From NCBI GenBank assembly GCA_018240525.1, contig JAFEFN010000007.1:186001-250000 (forward strand): 64,000 bases of DNA, in the 5' to 3' direction. The first letter of the stretch is position 1; each line of letters begins with the position of its first letter. Shown here in pieces: positions 20,371 to 34,250 of this stretch. The notes below the pieces were generated by a model, which was not told the DNA's origin, did not search any database, and saw only the letters and a program-made list of their open reading frames with translations. This DNA comes from Pseudomonadota bacterium. Lineage in GTDB: Bacteria; Pseudomonadota; Gammaproteobacteria; Steroidobacterales; Steroidobacteraceae. Position numbers and translations under genes: made by a program.

Positions 20371-20826
20371 ATGGCCTCACAGCTGAGCAAGGCGGAGTCG
20401 ACCCAGGTCGTCGAGATCCTCAACCGCATCCTGGAGCTCGAGCTGTCCGGGCTGGTGCGGTACCTGCACTACAGTTTCATGGTGTTCGGGCACAACCGCA
20501 TCCCGATCGTCGCCTGGCTGCGCAGCCAGGCGGTCGAGTCGCAGGCACACGCGGTACGCGCCGGCGAACTCATCACGGCGCTCGGCGGCCACCCCTCCCT
20601 GAAGATCGGTGCGCTGCTGGAGACCCACAAGCACAACGTGGATGAGATCCTGCGCGAGGCCCTCGCGCACGAGGAGGAGGGCGTGGCGCAGTACCACAAA
20701 CTTCTCGAGCTGGTCGCAGGGCGCAACGTCATGCTGGAGGAGTACGCACGCACCCAGATCGCCGCAGAGGACATGCACCTCGCCGACCTGGGCAAGATGC
20801 TGCGCAAGCCGGGCTCCATCGCCTGA
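20371..20826 (+). CDS. Bacterioferritin-like / ferritin-like di-iron protein
   Basis: Four-helix protein of 151 residues. Helix A has LNRILELELSGLVRYLHYSFMVFG, helix B has VESQAHAVRAGELITALGG, and helices C-D carry LREALAHEEEGVAQYHKLLELV and YARTQIAAEDMHLADLGKML. The spaced Glu/His residues fit a ferroxidase site (E..., ExxH, E..., ExxH). It resembles bacterioferritins and Dps-like proteins more than encapsulated ferritins. Role in iron storage or detoxification is inference. AGGAGAAGG precedes the ATG. Divergent from glutathione peroxidase. Confidence 0.8.
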   Translation: MASQLSKAESTQVVEILNRILELELSGLVRYLHYSFMVFGHNRIPIVAWLRSQAVESQAHAVRAGELITALGGHPSLKIGALLETHKHNVDEILREALAHEEEGVAQYHKLLELVAGRNVMLEEYARTQIAAEDMHLADLGKMLRKPGSIA

Positions 20827-20987
20827 GCGGCGCGCCGCCCTCTCCCGAAAGATGGAGGCGCGGCGGGCGGGGCAGGGCGCGTGTCGTGTTCGCGTGATTC
20901 CGTGTCGGAACGTGCGGTGCTTCACATCAAAGCAATGCGCGCTGCGTAGACTGCGCGCCCCTGACAAACCACATGGAATCCACGGTC

Positions 20988-21095
20988 ATGGAATTGATCA
21001 TCTGCTCGCTGGCTGTGGCCGGACTTCTGCTCGTGGGACACCTGGGCGTCCTGGTCCGCAATCGCCTGCTGTCTGCCTTCGGGATCGCCCCCTAG
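20988..21095 (+). CDS. Micro-protein of 35 residues, single transmembrane helix
   Basis: Short frame MELIICSLAVAGLLLVGHLG followed by 15 more residues with two Arg and an Asn just after the helix. An in-frame ATG at 20973 would add MESTV; 20988 is preferred because it aligns without gaps to the micro-protein at 34155. There is no strong ribosome binding site (GGAA at 20976-20979). Low support alone; the match to a second copy raises it. Confidence 0.45.
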   Translation: MELIICSLAVAGLLLVGHLGVLVRNRLLSAFGIAP

Positions 21096-21138
21096 CCGCA
21101 CCGTTCTCGCCGCCGGCCGCCGGGGTTATGCTGCGGCG

Positions 21139-21960
21139 GTGAGGATCTACGCGGTAACCAATATCAAGGGTGGCGTCGGCAAGACCACCACCGCGGTGAA
21201 CCTCGCCTACCTGTGCGCGGCCGGCGGTGTGCGCACGCTCCTGTGGGATTTGGATTCCCAGGGGGGCGCGACCTACCTGCTGCACGGGGAGCCCAAGGAG
21301 AGCGCCAGTGCAAAGCGCCTGGTGGCCGGCAAGCGCGAGCTGCCGGAGCTGGTGGCGCCGACCGCGCATGCCGGGCTGGACCTGCTGCCCGCCGACTTCT
21401 CCTACCGCAACTTCGCGGTGCGGCTGGCCGAGCGGCGCCACCCGGCCGAGCGGCTGCTGAAGATGAGCCGTTCGTTGCGCGAGACGTATGGCGCCTTGTT
21501 CCTGGACTGCCCGGCGGGCATCTCCCTGCTCTCGGAGAGCGTGCTGCGCGCGGCCGACGTGGTCATCGTGCCGCTGGTGCCGACGCCGCTGTCGCTGCGC
21601 ATGCTGCGCGAGCTGTACCGGTTCGTGGCCGAGGAGGGCTGGACGGACCTGCGGCTGCTCCCCTTCTTTTCGATGGTCGATGCTCGTCGCGCCCTGCACC
21701 GGGAGCTGATGGACGCCGCGCGCGCAGAGTTCCCGCAGATCCTCGCCACGGAGGTTCCCTATCGCAGCGAGATCGAGCGCATGAGCGTGCGACGGGCGCC
21801 GCTGCCGGCCGGCGCTGCGAACAACGCGGCGGCACGCCTCTACCAGCAGCTGTGGCGCGAGGTCGGCGCGGCGCAGGATCCGCCGGCGACAGTGGTGGCA
21901 GAAGTGCGCGAAATGTTCCCGGGACAGACGGTCCTCGACACCCCCGCCGGGCAGATGTAA
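21139..21960 (+). CDS. Orphan ParA/MinD-type ATPase
   Basis: P-loop ATPase of 273 residues from GTG 21139. Deviant Walker A NIKGGVGKTTTAVNLA at residues 8-23, switch/Walker A' region LLWDLDSQGGATYLL, and Walker B FLDCPAGISLLSE are intact. There is no ParB gene or parS-like cluster beside it. ParA-like proteins of this size position chromosomes, plasmids, chemoreceptors or polar complexes; the cargo here is unknown. The 233 bp before the next gene hold nothing I can name. Confidence 0.85.
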   Translation: MRIYAVTNIKGGVGKTTTAVNLAYLCAAGGVRTLLWDLDSQGGATYLLHGEPKESASAKRLVAGKRELPELVAPTAHAGLDLLPADFSYRNFAVRLAERRHPAERLLKMSRSLRETYGALFLDCPAGISLLSESVLRAADVVIVPLVPTPLSLRMLRELYRFVAEEGWTDLRLLPFFSMVDARRALHRELMDAARAEFPQILATEVPYRSEIERMSVRRAPLPAGAANNAAARLYQQLWREVGAAQDPPATVVAEVREMFPGQTVLDTPAGQM

Positions 21961-22193: not shown

Positions 22194-25016
22194 ATGTTGA
22201 CTGCGATAGCGAGACTTGCGCGCCACCGTGCCGTGGCCGCTCGATGGCTGTTCCTTGGCATGATTCTCGGGCTTCCCGCCTGCGGCGGTGGCGGCGGCGG
22301 CGGGTCCGACCCGCCACCCCCGCCCCCACCGGTGCTGGCGGTCGCGACCGAGGCGCTGCCGGATGCCCAGGTGGGCACGGCCTACAGTTCGACGCTGACA
22401 GCCACCGGCGGAACACTTCCCTATAGCTGGAGCATCAGCAGCGGCGCCTTGCCCCCGGGATTGTCCCTGGATGGCTCGACGGGCGCGATCAGCGGTACGC
22501 CGACCACCGCCATCACGGCCGCGCCGCTGACGGTGACGGTGCACGACGCGGGCAACCCGGCACAGAGCAGCAGCGGCAACCTCACCCTGAACGTCATCCC
22601 TTCGGGGATCCTGGTGCTCACCAACTACCTGCCGGACGGCCAGGTCGGTACCAGCTACAGCGCGGCGCTCAGCGCCAAGGGCGGCGTCACTCCCTACACC
22701 TGGCAGCTCACCAGTGGCACCTTGCCTGCGGGCCTGCAGCTCGATGGCGCCGCGGGCATGATCACGGGCACGCCCACCAGCAACGTCAAGGCCACGCCGC
22801 TTGCGTTCAAGGTCACCGACAGTTCGAGCCCGACAGGCTCGGCAATGACCGCCGGACTCGCCCTGACGATCTCCGCGCCGCCGCTGCTCATCAGCACGAC
22901 GCTGCTGCCGGATGGGCAGACCGGCACCCCCTACAACACCACGCTCGCCGCCACCGGCGGCACCGGCGCGGTCAGCTGGGCCGTCACGACCGGCACCCTG
23001 CCGGCCGGACTGCACCTGAATGCGGCCACGGGCCTGATCTCGGGCACCCCGACCGCCTCGGGTCCTGCGGTGCCGCTGACCGTCACCGCCTCCGATTCCG
23101 GATCGCCGGTCCAGAAGGTGAGTGCCGCGTACACGCTGACCGTCAACCCTTCCGGCATTTCGGTGGACGTGACGCCGCGGCGCGCGGCGCTCACCGTGAC
23201 GCAGGCGCTGACCCTGTCCGCGGTCACCAATGATCCCGGCGGAGTGACCTGGAGCGTCAGCCCGGCCGGCGGCAGCTTCAGTCCTGCGGCCAGCACGAAC
23301 GGCGCCAATGTGACCTTCACCGCACCGGGCAGTGCCGGTGTCTACACCGTCACGGCGACCAGCGTCACCGACACCACCCGCAGCGCCTCGATCCCGGTGG
23401 CCGTGACGGACCTTGCCGGCGTGTACACCTACCACAACGACCTGGCCCGCACGGGTGCCAACACGCGCGAATTCGCCCTGACCGCCGCCAGCGTCAACGT
23501 CAGCACGTTCGGCAAGCTGTTCTCGTGCACGGTCGACGGGGCCATCTACGCCCAGCCGCTGTGGGTGGCGAACCTGACCGTCAACGGTTCGCCCCACAAC
23601 GTCGTCTTCGTGGCCACCGCGCACGACAGCCTGTATGCCTTCGACGCCGATGCCGCCAGCTGCAACCTGCTGTGGGCGGTGAGCCTCATCGATGCGGCGC
23701 ACGGGGGCAGCGGCACGGAGACCACCGTGCCCGCGGGGCCCTCCGGCACGGGCAACCTCGTCGGCGCGGGCTACGGCGACATCTCGCCCGAGGTCGGGGT
23801 CATCGGCACGCCGGTGATCGACCCGGCGACCAGCACGCTCTACGTCATCTCCAAGTCGGTGAGCGCCGACCAGACCGTGTTCTACCAGCGCCTGCACGCC
23901 ATCGACCTTGCGACCGGGTCCGAGAAGTCGGCCGGATCGCCGCTCACCATCTCCGCAACGTTCTCCAACAACCTCGGCGGGACGGTGAGCTTCAGCCCCC
24001 GCATGCAGAACCAGCGCGCCGGCCTGGCGCTGTCGGGCGGCAAGATCTGGGCGGCCTGGGGGGCGCACGAGGACGTCGATCCCTGGTTCGGCTGGGTGAT
24101 GGGCTTCACCTACAGCAACGGCAACTTCGCGCAGGTGGCGGTATTCAACACCGCCCCGAACGCCGGTCGCGCGGGCATCTGGATGAGCGGCGGGGCGCCG
24201 TCCTTCGATGCCAGCGGCAACCTGTACGTCATCACCGGCAACGGCACCGCCCAGACCACGAGTGCGCCCCCGTTTGACTACGGGGACTCGTTCCTGCAGC
24301 TCAACCCCGCCTCGGGCAACATGAACGTGAATTCCTACTTCACGCCGGCGAATGCCTCCACGCTGGCCACCAACGACGGCGACTTCGGCGCCGGCGGTGC
24401 GGCGCTGCTGCTGAACCTCGCCGCCGGCTCGCCGGCCCACCTGGCCATCGGCGCTGGCAAGGACGGCGCGCTCTACGTGCTGAACGGCGACAACCTGGGC
24501 GGCACCGGGCAGCCCTACCAGTCGATCACCATCGGCGCCTCGAACTTCTCCACGGGCGCCTTCTGGAACAATACGCTGTACATCTCGCCGGTGAACACGC
24601 CGCTGCTGGCGTATACGTTCGACCCGACGGCGAAGCTGTTCAGTCCGACGCTGGCCATGCAGTCGGACCCGAACTTCAAGTTCGGCTTCCCGGGGGCGAC
24701 GGCATCGATTTCCGCCAGCAGCGCGAGCACCGATGGCATCGTCTGGGCGATCAACTCCAGCGCCTACTGCACGGCGCAGTCAGGCGCCTGCGGGCCCGCC
24801 CAGCTGTTCGCGTTCTCGGCCGCTGCGCTGGGCACGACGCTGTGGAACAGCACCACCATCGGCTCGGACGCGGCGGGGAACGCGGTGAAGTTCACGGTGC
24901 CGACGGTGGCGAACGGCAAGGTGTACGTCGGGACGCGCGGGGACAATCGCGGCGACCCCTCAGGATCGACCGCCAAGGCCGGCGAACTGGACGTCTACGG
25001 CCTGAAGCCCAACTAG
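22194..25016 (+). CDS. Lipoprotein with He_PIG Ig-like repeats and PQQ-like beta-propeller
   Basis: 940 residues from ATG 22194. The start RWLFLGMILGLPACGGGG is a lipoprotein signal with lipobox LPAC, followed by Gly and Pro runs. Three putative-Ig (He_PIG) repeats of about 88 residues follow, each with the pattern LPDGQ.GT.Y...L.A.GG..PY.W....GTLP.GL.LD...G.I.GTP. A further Ig-like segment (DVTPRRAALTV...) leads to a propeller-like C-terminal half with PQQ-enzyme-type repeats (LYAFDADAASCNLLW, KDGALYVLNGDNLGG, GKVYVGTRGD). Predicted outer-membrane or surface-anchored binding protein; no catalytic residues recognised. Confidence 0.75.
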   Translation: MLTAIARLARHRAVAARWLFLGMILGLPACGGGGGGGSDPPPPPPPVLAVATEALPDAQVGTAYSSTLTATGGTLPYSWSISSGALPPGLSLDGSTGAISGTPTTAITAAPLTVTVHDAGNPAQSSSGNLTLNVIPSGILVLTNYLPDGQVGTSYSAALSAKGGVTPYTWQLTSGTLPAGLQLDGAAGMITGTPTSNVKATPLAFKVTDSSSPTGSAMTAGLALTISAPPLLISTTLLPDGQTGTPYNTTLAATGGTGAVSWAVTTGTLPAGLHLNAATGLISGTPTASGPAVPLTVTASDSGSPVQKVSAAYTLTVNPSGISVDVTPRRAALTVTQALTLSAVTNDPGGVTWSVSPAGGSFSPAASTNGANVTFTAPGSAGVYTVTATSVTDTTRSASIPVAVTDLAGVYTYHNDLARTGANTREFALTAASVNVSTFGKLFSCTVDGAIYAQPLWVANLTVNGSPHNVVFVATAHDSLYAFDADAASCNLLWAVSLIDAAHGGSGTETTVPAGPSGTGNLVGAGYGDISPEVGVIGTPVIDPATSTLYVISKSVSADQTVFYQRLHAIDLATGSEKSAGSPLTISATFSNNLGGTVSFSPRMQNQRAGLALSGGKIWAAWGAHEDVDPWFGWVMGFTYSNGNFAQVAVFNTAPNAGRAGIWMSGGAPSFDASGNLYVITGNGTAQTTSAPPFDYGDSFLQLNPASGNMNVNSYFTPANASTLATNDGDFGAGGAALLLNLAAGSPAHLAIGAGKDGALYVLNGDNLGGTGQPYQSITIGASNFSTGAFWNNTLYISPVNTPLLAYTFDPTAKLFSPTLAMQSDPNFKFGFPGATASISASSASTDGIVWAINSSAYCTAQSGACGPAQLFAFSAAALGTTLWNSTTIGSDAAGNAVKFTVPTVANGKVYVGTRGDNRGDPSGSTAKAGELDVYGLKPN

Positions 25017-33047: not shown

Positions 33048-33980
33048 CTATACCGTGCGTGGTATGCCCGCTGTTCCCAATGCGCACTCGAGTGCCCGAT
33101 CCCAGCCGGTCGCCTCGGCAGCCGCGCGGTAGGTGCTCTGCAGGAATGCCAGCAGCAGTGCATCCGGATCCGAGGCACCGCGGACGACTTCGTAGGGCAG
33201 CAGGAACTCGCCCAGCTGGGTGTCGAAGACCGCCTCGCGCGGTTCCACCTGCGAGCGCCGGAAGCCATCGGTGGTCGGGTATGCGTACGAATAGAAGCAG
33301 GGATAGTCGACGCCGCCACCGCCGGGCCAGAACCCGGCACTGCTCACCTCGTGGGAGTACGCCTCGCGCATGACGGCCGGGGAGACTCCCGGCACCTTGC
33401 CGGGAAAGGGTGGCGCGCTGCGGCCGGAAAAGCGCGTGACGGCCAGATCGAAGCTTCCCCAGAAAAAGTGCACCGGGCTGGATTTGCCGAGGAAGCCGGT
33501 GCGGAACTGCTTGAAGACCCGATCGACCCGCAGGAGCACCTGCCAGAGACGCTGTGCCTGCTCCCCGTTGTAGTCCCGGCGGGCGGTGTCCTGGCTGAAG
33601 CGCGCGGCACCGGCGATCTCGCAGGGCAACTCGTCCACGCTCACCGGCACGCCGAGGGTGGTCAGGGTCTGCATCACCGCGGCGTAGAACTCGGCGACCG
33701 ATTGTGCACGCAGGCGCACATCGCCGCTCCTGCCGGTGCTGGTCTGCACATGCAGCGCCTGGCGCCGGAAGTCGAACTCGAGTTCGAAGAAGGACTCGTC
33801 GTGCGCGATCAGCGAGCTCGTCAGGCCCCGCGCGGTCAGGTACAGCGGCACGTGCCAGCTGTGATTGAGCCAGGGGGTGCGGCGGAGCCGGATCTTCCCC
33901 ACCACCTGGCTCCACAGGCGCAGCGCCTCGAAGGTTTCGCATCCCTCGGAGTAGGAAAGCTCGGGCCAGCCGGTCGTCAT
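33048..33980 (-). CDS. DUF5996 family protein
   Basis: 310 residues. Family landmarks are WPELSYSEGCETFEALRLWSQVVGKIRL, the HSWHVPLYLTARGLTS segment, FELEFDFRRQALHV and, in the second half, SPVHFFWGSFDLAVTRFSGR and SHEVSSAGFWPGGG..YPCFYSYAYPTTDGF. No signal peptide or membrane helix. No activity is known to me for the family. It lies upstream of the small membrane protein with a 65-bp gap on the same strand. Confidence 0.85.
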   Translation of the reverse strand: MTTGWPELSYSEGCETFEALRLWSQVVGKIRLRRTPWLNHSWHVPLYLTARGLTSSLIAHDESFFELEFDFRRQALHVQTSTGRSGDVRLRAQSVAEFYAAVMQTLTTLGVPVSVDELPCEIAGAARFSQDTARRDYNGEQAQRLWQVLLRVDRVFKQFRTGFLGKSSPVHFFWGSFDLAVTRFSGRSAPPFPGKVPGVSPAVMREAYSHEVSSAGFWPGGGGVDYPCFYSYAYPTTDGFRRSQVEPREAVFDTQLGEFLLPYEVVRGASDPDALLLAFLQSTYRAAAEATGWDRALECALGTAGIPRTV

Positions 33981-34094
33981 GGGCTAAATGTTCGCCTTTG
34001 CAATCCCCCCTTATCAATAGAGCACCGGTGCTCCTCCTGCTGAGGCGGCCGAGACTCTGACGGGGCCGCCACGGTGCCTCACCGGAGGGCTGTG

Positions 34095-34112: not shown

Positions 34113-34154
34113 TAAAGTTAGCCAGCCCGAAGTACCTGTCCTGAATGGTGATTT

Positions 34155-34250
34155 ATGGAATTCCTGCTCATCGATGTCGGCGCAACGCTGGTGCTGCTGG
34201 TCGGCTACCTGTCGGTCGTCTTCTGGAGCGATCTCGCCCGCTCGGTCTAG
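34155..34250 (+). CDS. Micro-protein of 31 residues, single transmembrane helix
   Basis: Frame MEFLLIDVGATLVLLVGYLS followed by 11 residues to a TAG. GGTGA lies 4 bases before the ATG. One hydrophobic helix spans nearly the whole chain. It aligns without gaps to the micro-protein at 20988, sharing ME at the start, LLVG, the L two residues later, V21 and L27. A GC hairpin follows its stop by 11 bp. Small by any gene finder; both context and similarity argue it is real. Confidence 0.5.
   Translation: MEFLLIDVGATLVLLVGYLSVVFWSDLARSV

Follow-up and report, generated by a model that had tools for sequence, protein, structure and literature searches.

Small membrane proteins of about 30 residues, such as KdpF, CydX, AcrZ and MgtS, tune a larger membrane protein. 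YohP, of 27 residues, is a stress-linked small membrane protein (PMC7549839), and the discovery of small membrane proteins is the subject of PMC10903887; the papers found on small proteins are general catalogues, and judged by titles and abstract openings none of them describes the family reported here. The two micro-proteins that we call A and B resemble KdpF, CydX, AcrZ, MgtS and YohP in size, in having one predicted transmembrane helix and in being encoded by an apparently stand-alone, regulated gene. However, no sequence relation to any of these proteins was detected, and the A/B family has one to three paralogs per genome and at least two promoter types. Small single-pass membrane proteins are already known as a kind, and what is new is the A/B family itself. 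Comparison with related genomes shows that A and B belong to what appears to be a genus-restricted, dispersed micro-gene family under purifying selection, most of whose members carry the same promoter plan.

Both frames lie on the plus strand of the window, the stretch of 64,000 nt that was analysed. The gene of micro-protein A (20988..21095, 35 residues, MELIICSLAVAGLLLVGHLGVLVRNRLLSAFGIAP) is flanked by a ferritin-like gene (20371-20826) on the left and by a ParA-like gene (21139-21960) on the right. For micro-protein B (34155..34250, 31 residues, MEFLLIDVGATLVLLVGYLSVVFWSDLARSV) the flanking genes are a DUF5996 gene (33048-33980, minus strand) on the left and a glycosyltransferase-9 gene on the right (Pfam assignments); the stop codon is counted in both sets of coordinates. 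The first-pass annotation had described the two as a pair of frames of 35 and 31 residues in separate intergenic regions, and its coordinates and lengths were confirmed. The ungapped alignment of A and B over 31 positions was recounted and contains nine identities, M1, E2, L14, L15, V16, G17, L19, V21 and L27 (positions by eye), which cover the ME start, the LLVG stretch and the three single residues L19, V21 and L27 that had been reported as shared.

On its own, the resemblance between A and B is weak evidence. The A/B score was matched by 15 of 200,000 composition-preserving shuffles, and within the window 752 pairs of small frames reach the A/B score minus 15 or more, some of them scoring clearly higher. 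The two best-scoring pairs lie antisense to a repeat-rich gene at ~22.3-25.0 kb. A chance resemblance of hydrophobic frames, with no gene family behind it, would account for a pair whose score other frames of the same window match or exceed, and this caveat had been raised when the pair was first described. It stands for the pair taken alone. Chance itself is already refuted by the homologs, the synteny, the pN/pS values and the promoter plan given below, and we leave it practically no probability: the A/B resemblance is more than chance because the frames are conserved in relatives, are under purifying selection and share their promoter anatomy. As a separate observation, the repeat-rich long gene (22281-25016 in the window) looks Ig-like by eye, and its antisense frames are alike one another.

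Members of the family across one genus

Single-sequence searches with A and with B covered 60 genomes, including that of the window. With A as the query, frames were found in G015, G027, G001 and G034 at E-values of 2e-6 to 4e-5, and with B in G031, G019 and G034 at 1e-8 to 2e-7; one frame of G033 was a weak match for A (E 0.2) as well as for B (E 0.0075). A family profile was built stepwise, from 17, then 35, then 42 members. A tBLASTn search for further copies had been proposed in the first-pass annotation; here the profile, at E<=2.3e-6, located 45 places spread over 24 genomes, every one of them in the window's genus, of which 58 species were examined. The window's own genome (G000) contains exactly two copies by profile, A and B, both in the window, and the 23 other positive genomes contain one to three copies each. 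At E<=2.3e-6 no member was found in the remaining 34 of the 58 species, several of whose genomes are less than 80% complete. Note that the profile E-values mostly follow from construction, since the profiles contain members from these genomes; the independent evidence for the family is the single-sequence searches, the selection and the synteny.

In the rest of the taxonomic family (217 genomes minus the 58 of the genus) the 42-member profile found nothing under E=0.009. An earlier profile, run on 200 genomes of the family, had given matches in other genera at E 0.0013 (G086) and 0.006 (G152 and G204), inside frames of 170-512 residues. Among 369 sampled genomes of the class, the window's own genome was the sole positive at E<=0.001, and B used as the query had no match among plasmids and phages. 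Weak single-query matches inside long frames were left out of the family, as were L017, after inspection, and members below 23 bits, among which is the MQFLLFDV type found in G021 and G028; the property table of 42 members also leaves out newer rows at 22 bits or less. The family varies more than one would judge from the A/B pair, with lengths of 27 to 81 residues and a median of 31 in the 42 members. The MQFLLFDV type carries a -10 box and looks real.

The A site has the order glutathione peroxidase, ferritin, micro-gene, ParA. Among 15 ParA loci examined, the micro-gene occupies a ferritin-ParA gap of 311-336 bp in G000, G231, G034, G001, G237 and G236; the G236 copy has decayed in its promoter and in its central His, with the frame still open. 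In G027 the micro-gene also follows ferritin, and the ParA there matches only in part. The ferritin-ParA gap of G009, G016, G028 and G017 measures 14-52 bp and has no member inside, and for G019, G031, G033 and G010 the search next to ParA turned up no ferritin. Among metagenome-assembled genomes of uncultured Proteobacteria/Gammaproteobacteria, the A gene precedes ParA in JANYBG010000152.1 and JAFEDU010000002.1 and is absent there in JAFAPI010000093.1. Frame-breaking changes had been named as what would speak against the micro-proteins, and the A frame is open in every A-site copy collected, the one in G001 being shorter and stopping at 28 residues. The ParA tree, in whose input the ParA stops were written X, was poorly resolved as to gain or loss of the A unit at this site. 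As for B, the G231 copy is 90% identical, with a pN/pS of 0.13, and its upstream DNA is alike by eye (the start of the neighbouring gene and an upstream box).

The reading frames were also compared for selection. Nine hand-picked pairs of close copies gave a pooled pN/pS of 0.20 (Fisher p=5e-22), with 82.3 changes over 226.8 synonymous sites vs 42.7 over 583.2 non-synonymous sites, and with 28, 17 and 80 changes at codon positions 1, 2 and 3, respectively; three of the nine pairs taken singly have p>0.05. In the pairs L001/L098 and L003/L173 both members follow ferritin, and in L021/L085 the upstream DNA is common to the two (by eye). The A orthologs pooled gave a pN/pS of 0.44, with dS near saturation in many pairs; values over 0.75 came from four very close pairs, of which one reached 2.06 on six changes. 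Judged from the pooled close copies, purifying selection is acting on the amino acids of the micro-proteins, which is the outcome of the dN/dS check suggested for them.

A TATGCT box is often seen ~8-14 nt 5' of the ParA-like start codon (21120-21140 in the window; also L156, L157, L158, L160, L162, L163 and L164), and its closeness to the start suggests a leaderless ParA transcript. The ParA start lies 43 nt past the stop of A, a distance that would suit regulatory leader peptides or attenuators acting on the downstream genes, ParA after A and the glycosyltransferase after B. However, downstream genes differ between copies and are convergent in some, such as L075; a terminator-like hairpin follows 8 of 42 copies under a loose folding criterion; and the selection acts on amino acids. 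A stricter scan found no plus-strand terminator at A or B. By eye, the TATGCT box of ParA is moreover present with or without a micro-gene upstream (without in G009 and G031), though it is not seen in G016, G028 and G017, where ParA closely follows ferritin. We consider leader peptides very unlikely. Across the copies, no constant neighbour gene was found as a candidate partner.

The predicted membrane peptide and the known families

A and B were each modelled as one helix spanning residues 2-30 (mean pLDDT 96 and 89, respectively), and these models, made from single sequences, show helical propensity, not membrane insertion. In the 42 members the best 19-residue Kyte-Doolittle mean ranges from 1.65 to 2.85. 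The first ten residues are net acidic in 41 of the 42 and contain Lys or Arg in none, and the C-terminal part is net basic in 28; some members have long basic tails, bringing the total up to 81 residues. Position 2 is recurrently Glu or Asp; most non-A members have an Asp or Glu near position 7, and many members have Gly-His or Gly-Tyr at positions 17-18. According to the positive-inside rule, the basic end of a membrane helix stays inside, and the charge pattern favours a predicted N-out/C-in orientation, most clearly in the A-type. The first-pass annotation had suggested a family of single-helix membrane micro-proteins that gene finders would pass over; conservation, the pooled pN/pS and the helix models bear out the family and its single helix, with translation and membrane location as predictions. 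A sub-group of the form MEILLID-GALA.FL...VYWH (L037, L038, L090, L174 and L175) has mostly longer tails and lacks both shared operators at the usual offset.

The family had no significant match in Pfam, NCBIfam, PHROGs, PADLOC or the sequences of solved structures. When 35 members were compared with Pfam and NCBIfam, the best E-values were 0.018 (DUF1427) and 0.034 (CcmD), and the KdpF model had no match among them at E<=1 in either library, in searches where the HMMER filters drop many weak matches. Genes kdpABC do not flank A or B, whose neighbours are the ferritin, ParA, DUF5996 and glycosyltransferase-9 genes, and Rfam has no match at either locus. The best match among solved structures was a chain length determinant protein (E 0.63). 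A match to the CD3 delta transmembrane segment with its Asp (E 1.4) was taken as convergence.

Toxins of type I toxin-antitoxin systems, membrane-depolarising peptides that are freed when silencing by an antisense RNA ends, deserve comparison because the Ldr and other type I toxins (PF13940) are likewise small and hydrophobic and have several chromosomal copies. The size, hydrophobicity and dispersed copies of the micro-proteins fit such toxins, and so does the presence or absence of the micro-gene at one and the same site. In two members a C-terminal FWHDL stretch resembles Ldr, and Ldr_toxin is the best Pfam match of two of the 35 (E=0.038 at best); its 14.4 bits, however, fall below the curated cut-off of 27. 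A terminator-like hairpin with a T-rich tail, on the minus strand within the A leader (20984-20972; shuffle mean 0.1), gives slight support to an opposing transcript of the kind that a type I system would have. In many type I systems the toxin mRNA has a long leader, or its ribosome site is sequestered (PMC4147584), whereas the predicted leaders of the micro-genes are ~30 nt and the three that were folded are no more stable than their shuffled versions (z +0.6 to +0.8). No promoter-like site, including one on the opposite strand, was found on either strand of A or B, in a scan that also misses the presumed sense promoters, and PADLOC finds nothing. The short unstructured leaders, the empty promoter scan of both strands and the weak Ldr match make the toxin reading the less likely one, and we rate it as unlikely.

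A shared promoter plan with two operators

The promoter plan shared by the micro-genes is new in this analysis. A -10-like box of the TA-A-T type precedes 32 of the 35 members, vs a mean of 3.6 and a maximum of 9 in mononucleotide shuffles, and the median distance from this box to the start codon is 33 nt. Located 34-36 nt upstream of the box is an operator of one of two kinds. The first, the CRP-like site GTG-N7-TCAC, is exact in 5 of the 11 A-type members and within one mismatch in 10 of the 11 (0/24 in the others), and the second, CTC-N4-GAG, is exact in 8 of the 24 non-A members and within one mismatch in 13 (0/11 in the A-type). Both operators together, within one mismatch, occur in none of the 35. 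In the shuffles the mean operator counts are <=0.51, and 0.06 for the CRP-like site in the A-type, a contrast that is flattering, since the 35 sequences used for the counts had also served to define the motifs, the offset and the groups.

At A, the CRP-like operator GTGCGGTGCTTCAC (20912..20925, plus strand) lies 35 nt upstream of the -10 box, with its centre near -41, and the -10 box TAGACT (20947..20952, plus strand) is followed by a GC-rich discriminator, the start codon being 35 nt on. At B, the CTC-N4-GAG operator CTCACCGGAG (34078..34087, plus strand) is offset by an equal distance to the CRP-like operator at A, and the -10-like box TAAAGT (34113..34118, plus strand) has its start codon 36 nt on. 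No sigma-70 consensus promoter was found at the A or B locus on either strand, which fits an activator-dependent promoter and is not positive proof of one.

The A group was drawn by eye with the upstream DNA in view, and L006 and L101 were placed in it after theirs had been seen; when these two are left out, the CRP-like site is present in 8 of 9 A-type members and in 2 of 26 others. Nine MELI-type copies all follow ferritin and so count as one locus. Beyond this MELI-type locus the CRP-like site is found at two loci only, L006 and L101, the latter with its apparent ortholog L170. Among 12 newer rows, an operator within one mismatch is present in three (L170, L173 and L172), each of them closely related to earlier members, and a -10 box of equal strength in six. 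The promoter is missing in L038, L090, L177 and L179. The two operators, mutually exclusive at one promoter position in the 35 members, offer a natural experiment in how the control of a micro-protein changes.

CRP, an exopolysaccharide gene and a candidate role

Class II CRP-dependent promoters have the activator site centred near -41.5. If transcription of the micro-genes starts ~7 bases past the -10 box, both operators would be centred near -41, which is the class II position. The A-type promoters resemble class II promoters in carrying GTG-N7-TCAC 34-36 nt upstream of the -10 box and in the presence of a CRP homolog. The homolog encoded in the window's own genome is a close one, which matches catabolite gene activator chains of solved structure at E 2e-75 and is equally close to Vfr, and the genome has two further Crp-family places, one of them below the cut-off. 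The stretch GCSREMAGRVLK of the homolog, which we take to be the recognition helix, corresponds to GCSRETVGRILK in the catabolite gene activator. In contrast to the TGTGA of class II CRP promoters, the left half-site in many A-type copies is CGTGC, and CRP binding may for this reason be weaker there. From their upstream sequences, some of the micro-genes appear to be under activation by CRP, the cAMP receptor protein.

The exact A-type promoter plan was found at nine sites in seven chosen genomes, vs one in the reversed control. Of the nine, four belong to micro-genes (in G000, G001, G231 and G238) and five precede a TIGR03013 gene for an exopolysaccharide glycosyltransferase (XrtA/PEP-CTERM system glycosyltransferase), one each in G034, G000, G001, G197 and G238. 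The five full-length products score 558-579 bits vs a cut-off of 393. In the window's own genome the exact plan is present at two sites only, micro-gene A and the exopolysaccharide glycosyltransferase. The micro-genes of G034, G197 and G010 deviate from the exact plan by mismatches or a one-base change in spacing. The TIGR03013 genes (L195, L196, L197, L199 and L200) have a near-perfect class II CRP promoter, TGTGA-N6-TCACA followed by TACACT.

Control of the CRP type, common to the micro-genes and the exopolysaccharide gene, would suit a community trait, and the products could on this ground be secreted or surface signals, pheromone- or bacteriocin-like, and not partners of a membrane complex. 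However, an acidic N-terminus without Lys or Arg is unlike a cleavable signal peptide, and no constant exporter or peptidase adjoins the micro-genes, a transporter-like gene by L080 and a penicillin-amidase-like gene by L068 (both named by eye) being single cases; we regard secreted signals as quite unlikely.

We think it probable, though by no means firmly so, that A and B are regulated single-pass inner-membrane micro-proteins that tune a larger membrane complex, with the A-type activated by CRP and other members under a different activator; tuning is the likeliest role by analogy with the characterised proteins of this size. Each micro-gene would be a stand-alone gene that is readily translated, and its product a single-pass helix in the inner membrane with the acidic N-terminus outside and the polar or basic C-terminus inside. 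For the A-type genes the activator would be CRP-cAMP bound at a class II site, and for many other members a different activator at the same position. The least certain steps are that the conserved middle of the helix (often L-L-x-G-H/Y-L) and its N-terminal Asp or Glu pack against a larger membrane protein or complex, and that the helix would tune the activity or stability of this partner when the regulator is active. The paralogs may represent one device in several versions, each under a different signal.

Since the exact plan is common to the exopolysaccharide glycosyltransferase, a partner is best sought first in the exopolysaccharide or envelope machinery. A bolder version, for which we see a small chance, is that scaffold and core promoter have been copied together to many intergenic positions within the genus, with the activator site swapped between CRP and at least one more regulator, giving signal-specific tuners of one membrane machine. 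If this were true, the machine would plausibly be exopolysaccharide or envelope machinery, and the copies would form a small modular regulatory family of ~300-bp promoter-plus-gene units. More generally, membrane proteins of 30 residues that are unmatched in the libraries searched can be established as genes by genome comparison, even in uncultured bacteria. The predicted regulator, CRP, together with one exopolysaccharide glycosyltransferase gene on the same plan, provides a handle that is seldom available for such proteins.

Finally, many non-A genes carry, farther upstream, a box of the form TGCAATCCCyCy-AAT-GTA; the one at B (TGCAATCCCCCCTTATCAATA, 33999..34019, plus strand) is of the kind seen before many B-type copies. 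The pattern has one match at <=2 mismatches in the window's own genome and six in the seven chosen genomes, with none in the reversed control; five of the six lie at micro-genes that supplied the pattern, so that the box is nearly private to them. A FixJ-type regulator was considered as the reader of the CCCC-AAT-GTA box and set aside: its relatives occur in 48 of the 58 genomes of the genus (E<=1e-30), with micro-genes or not, which makes the link only a lead. The B-type genes of G034, G221 and G233 each have a FixJ-type response regulator gene and a histidine kinase gene next to them in divergent orientation (L064:1012-3302, L086 and L084). The sixth match of the upstream box (L105, G010:C15:25064) lies just before a gene that by eye resembles glutamate-cysteine ligase.
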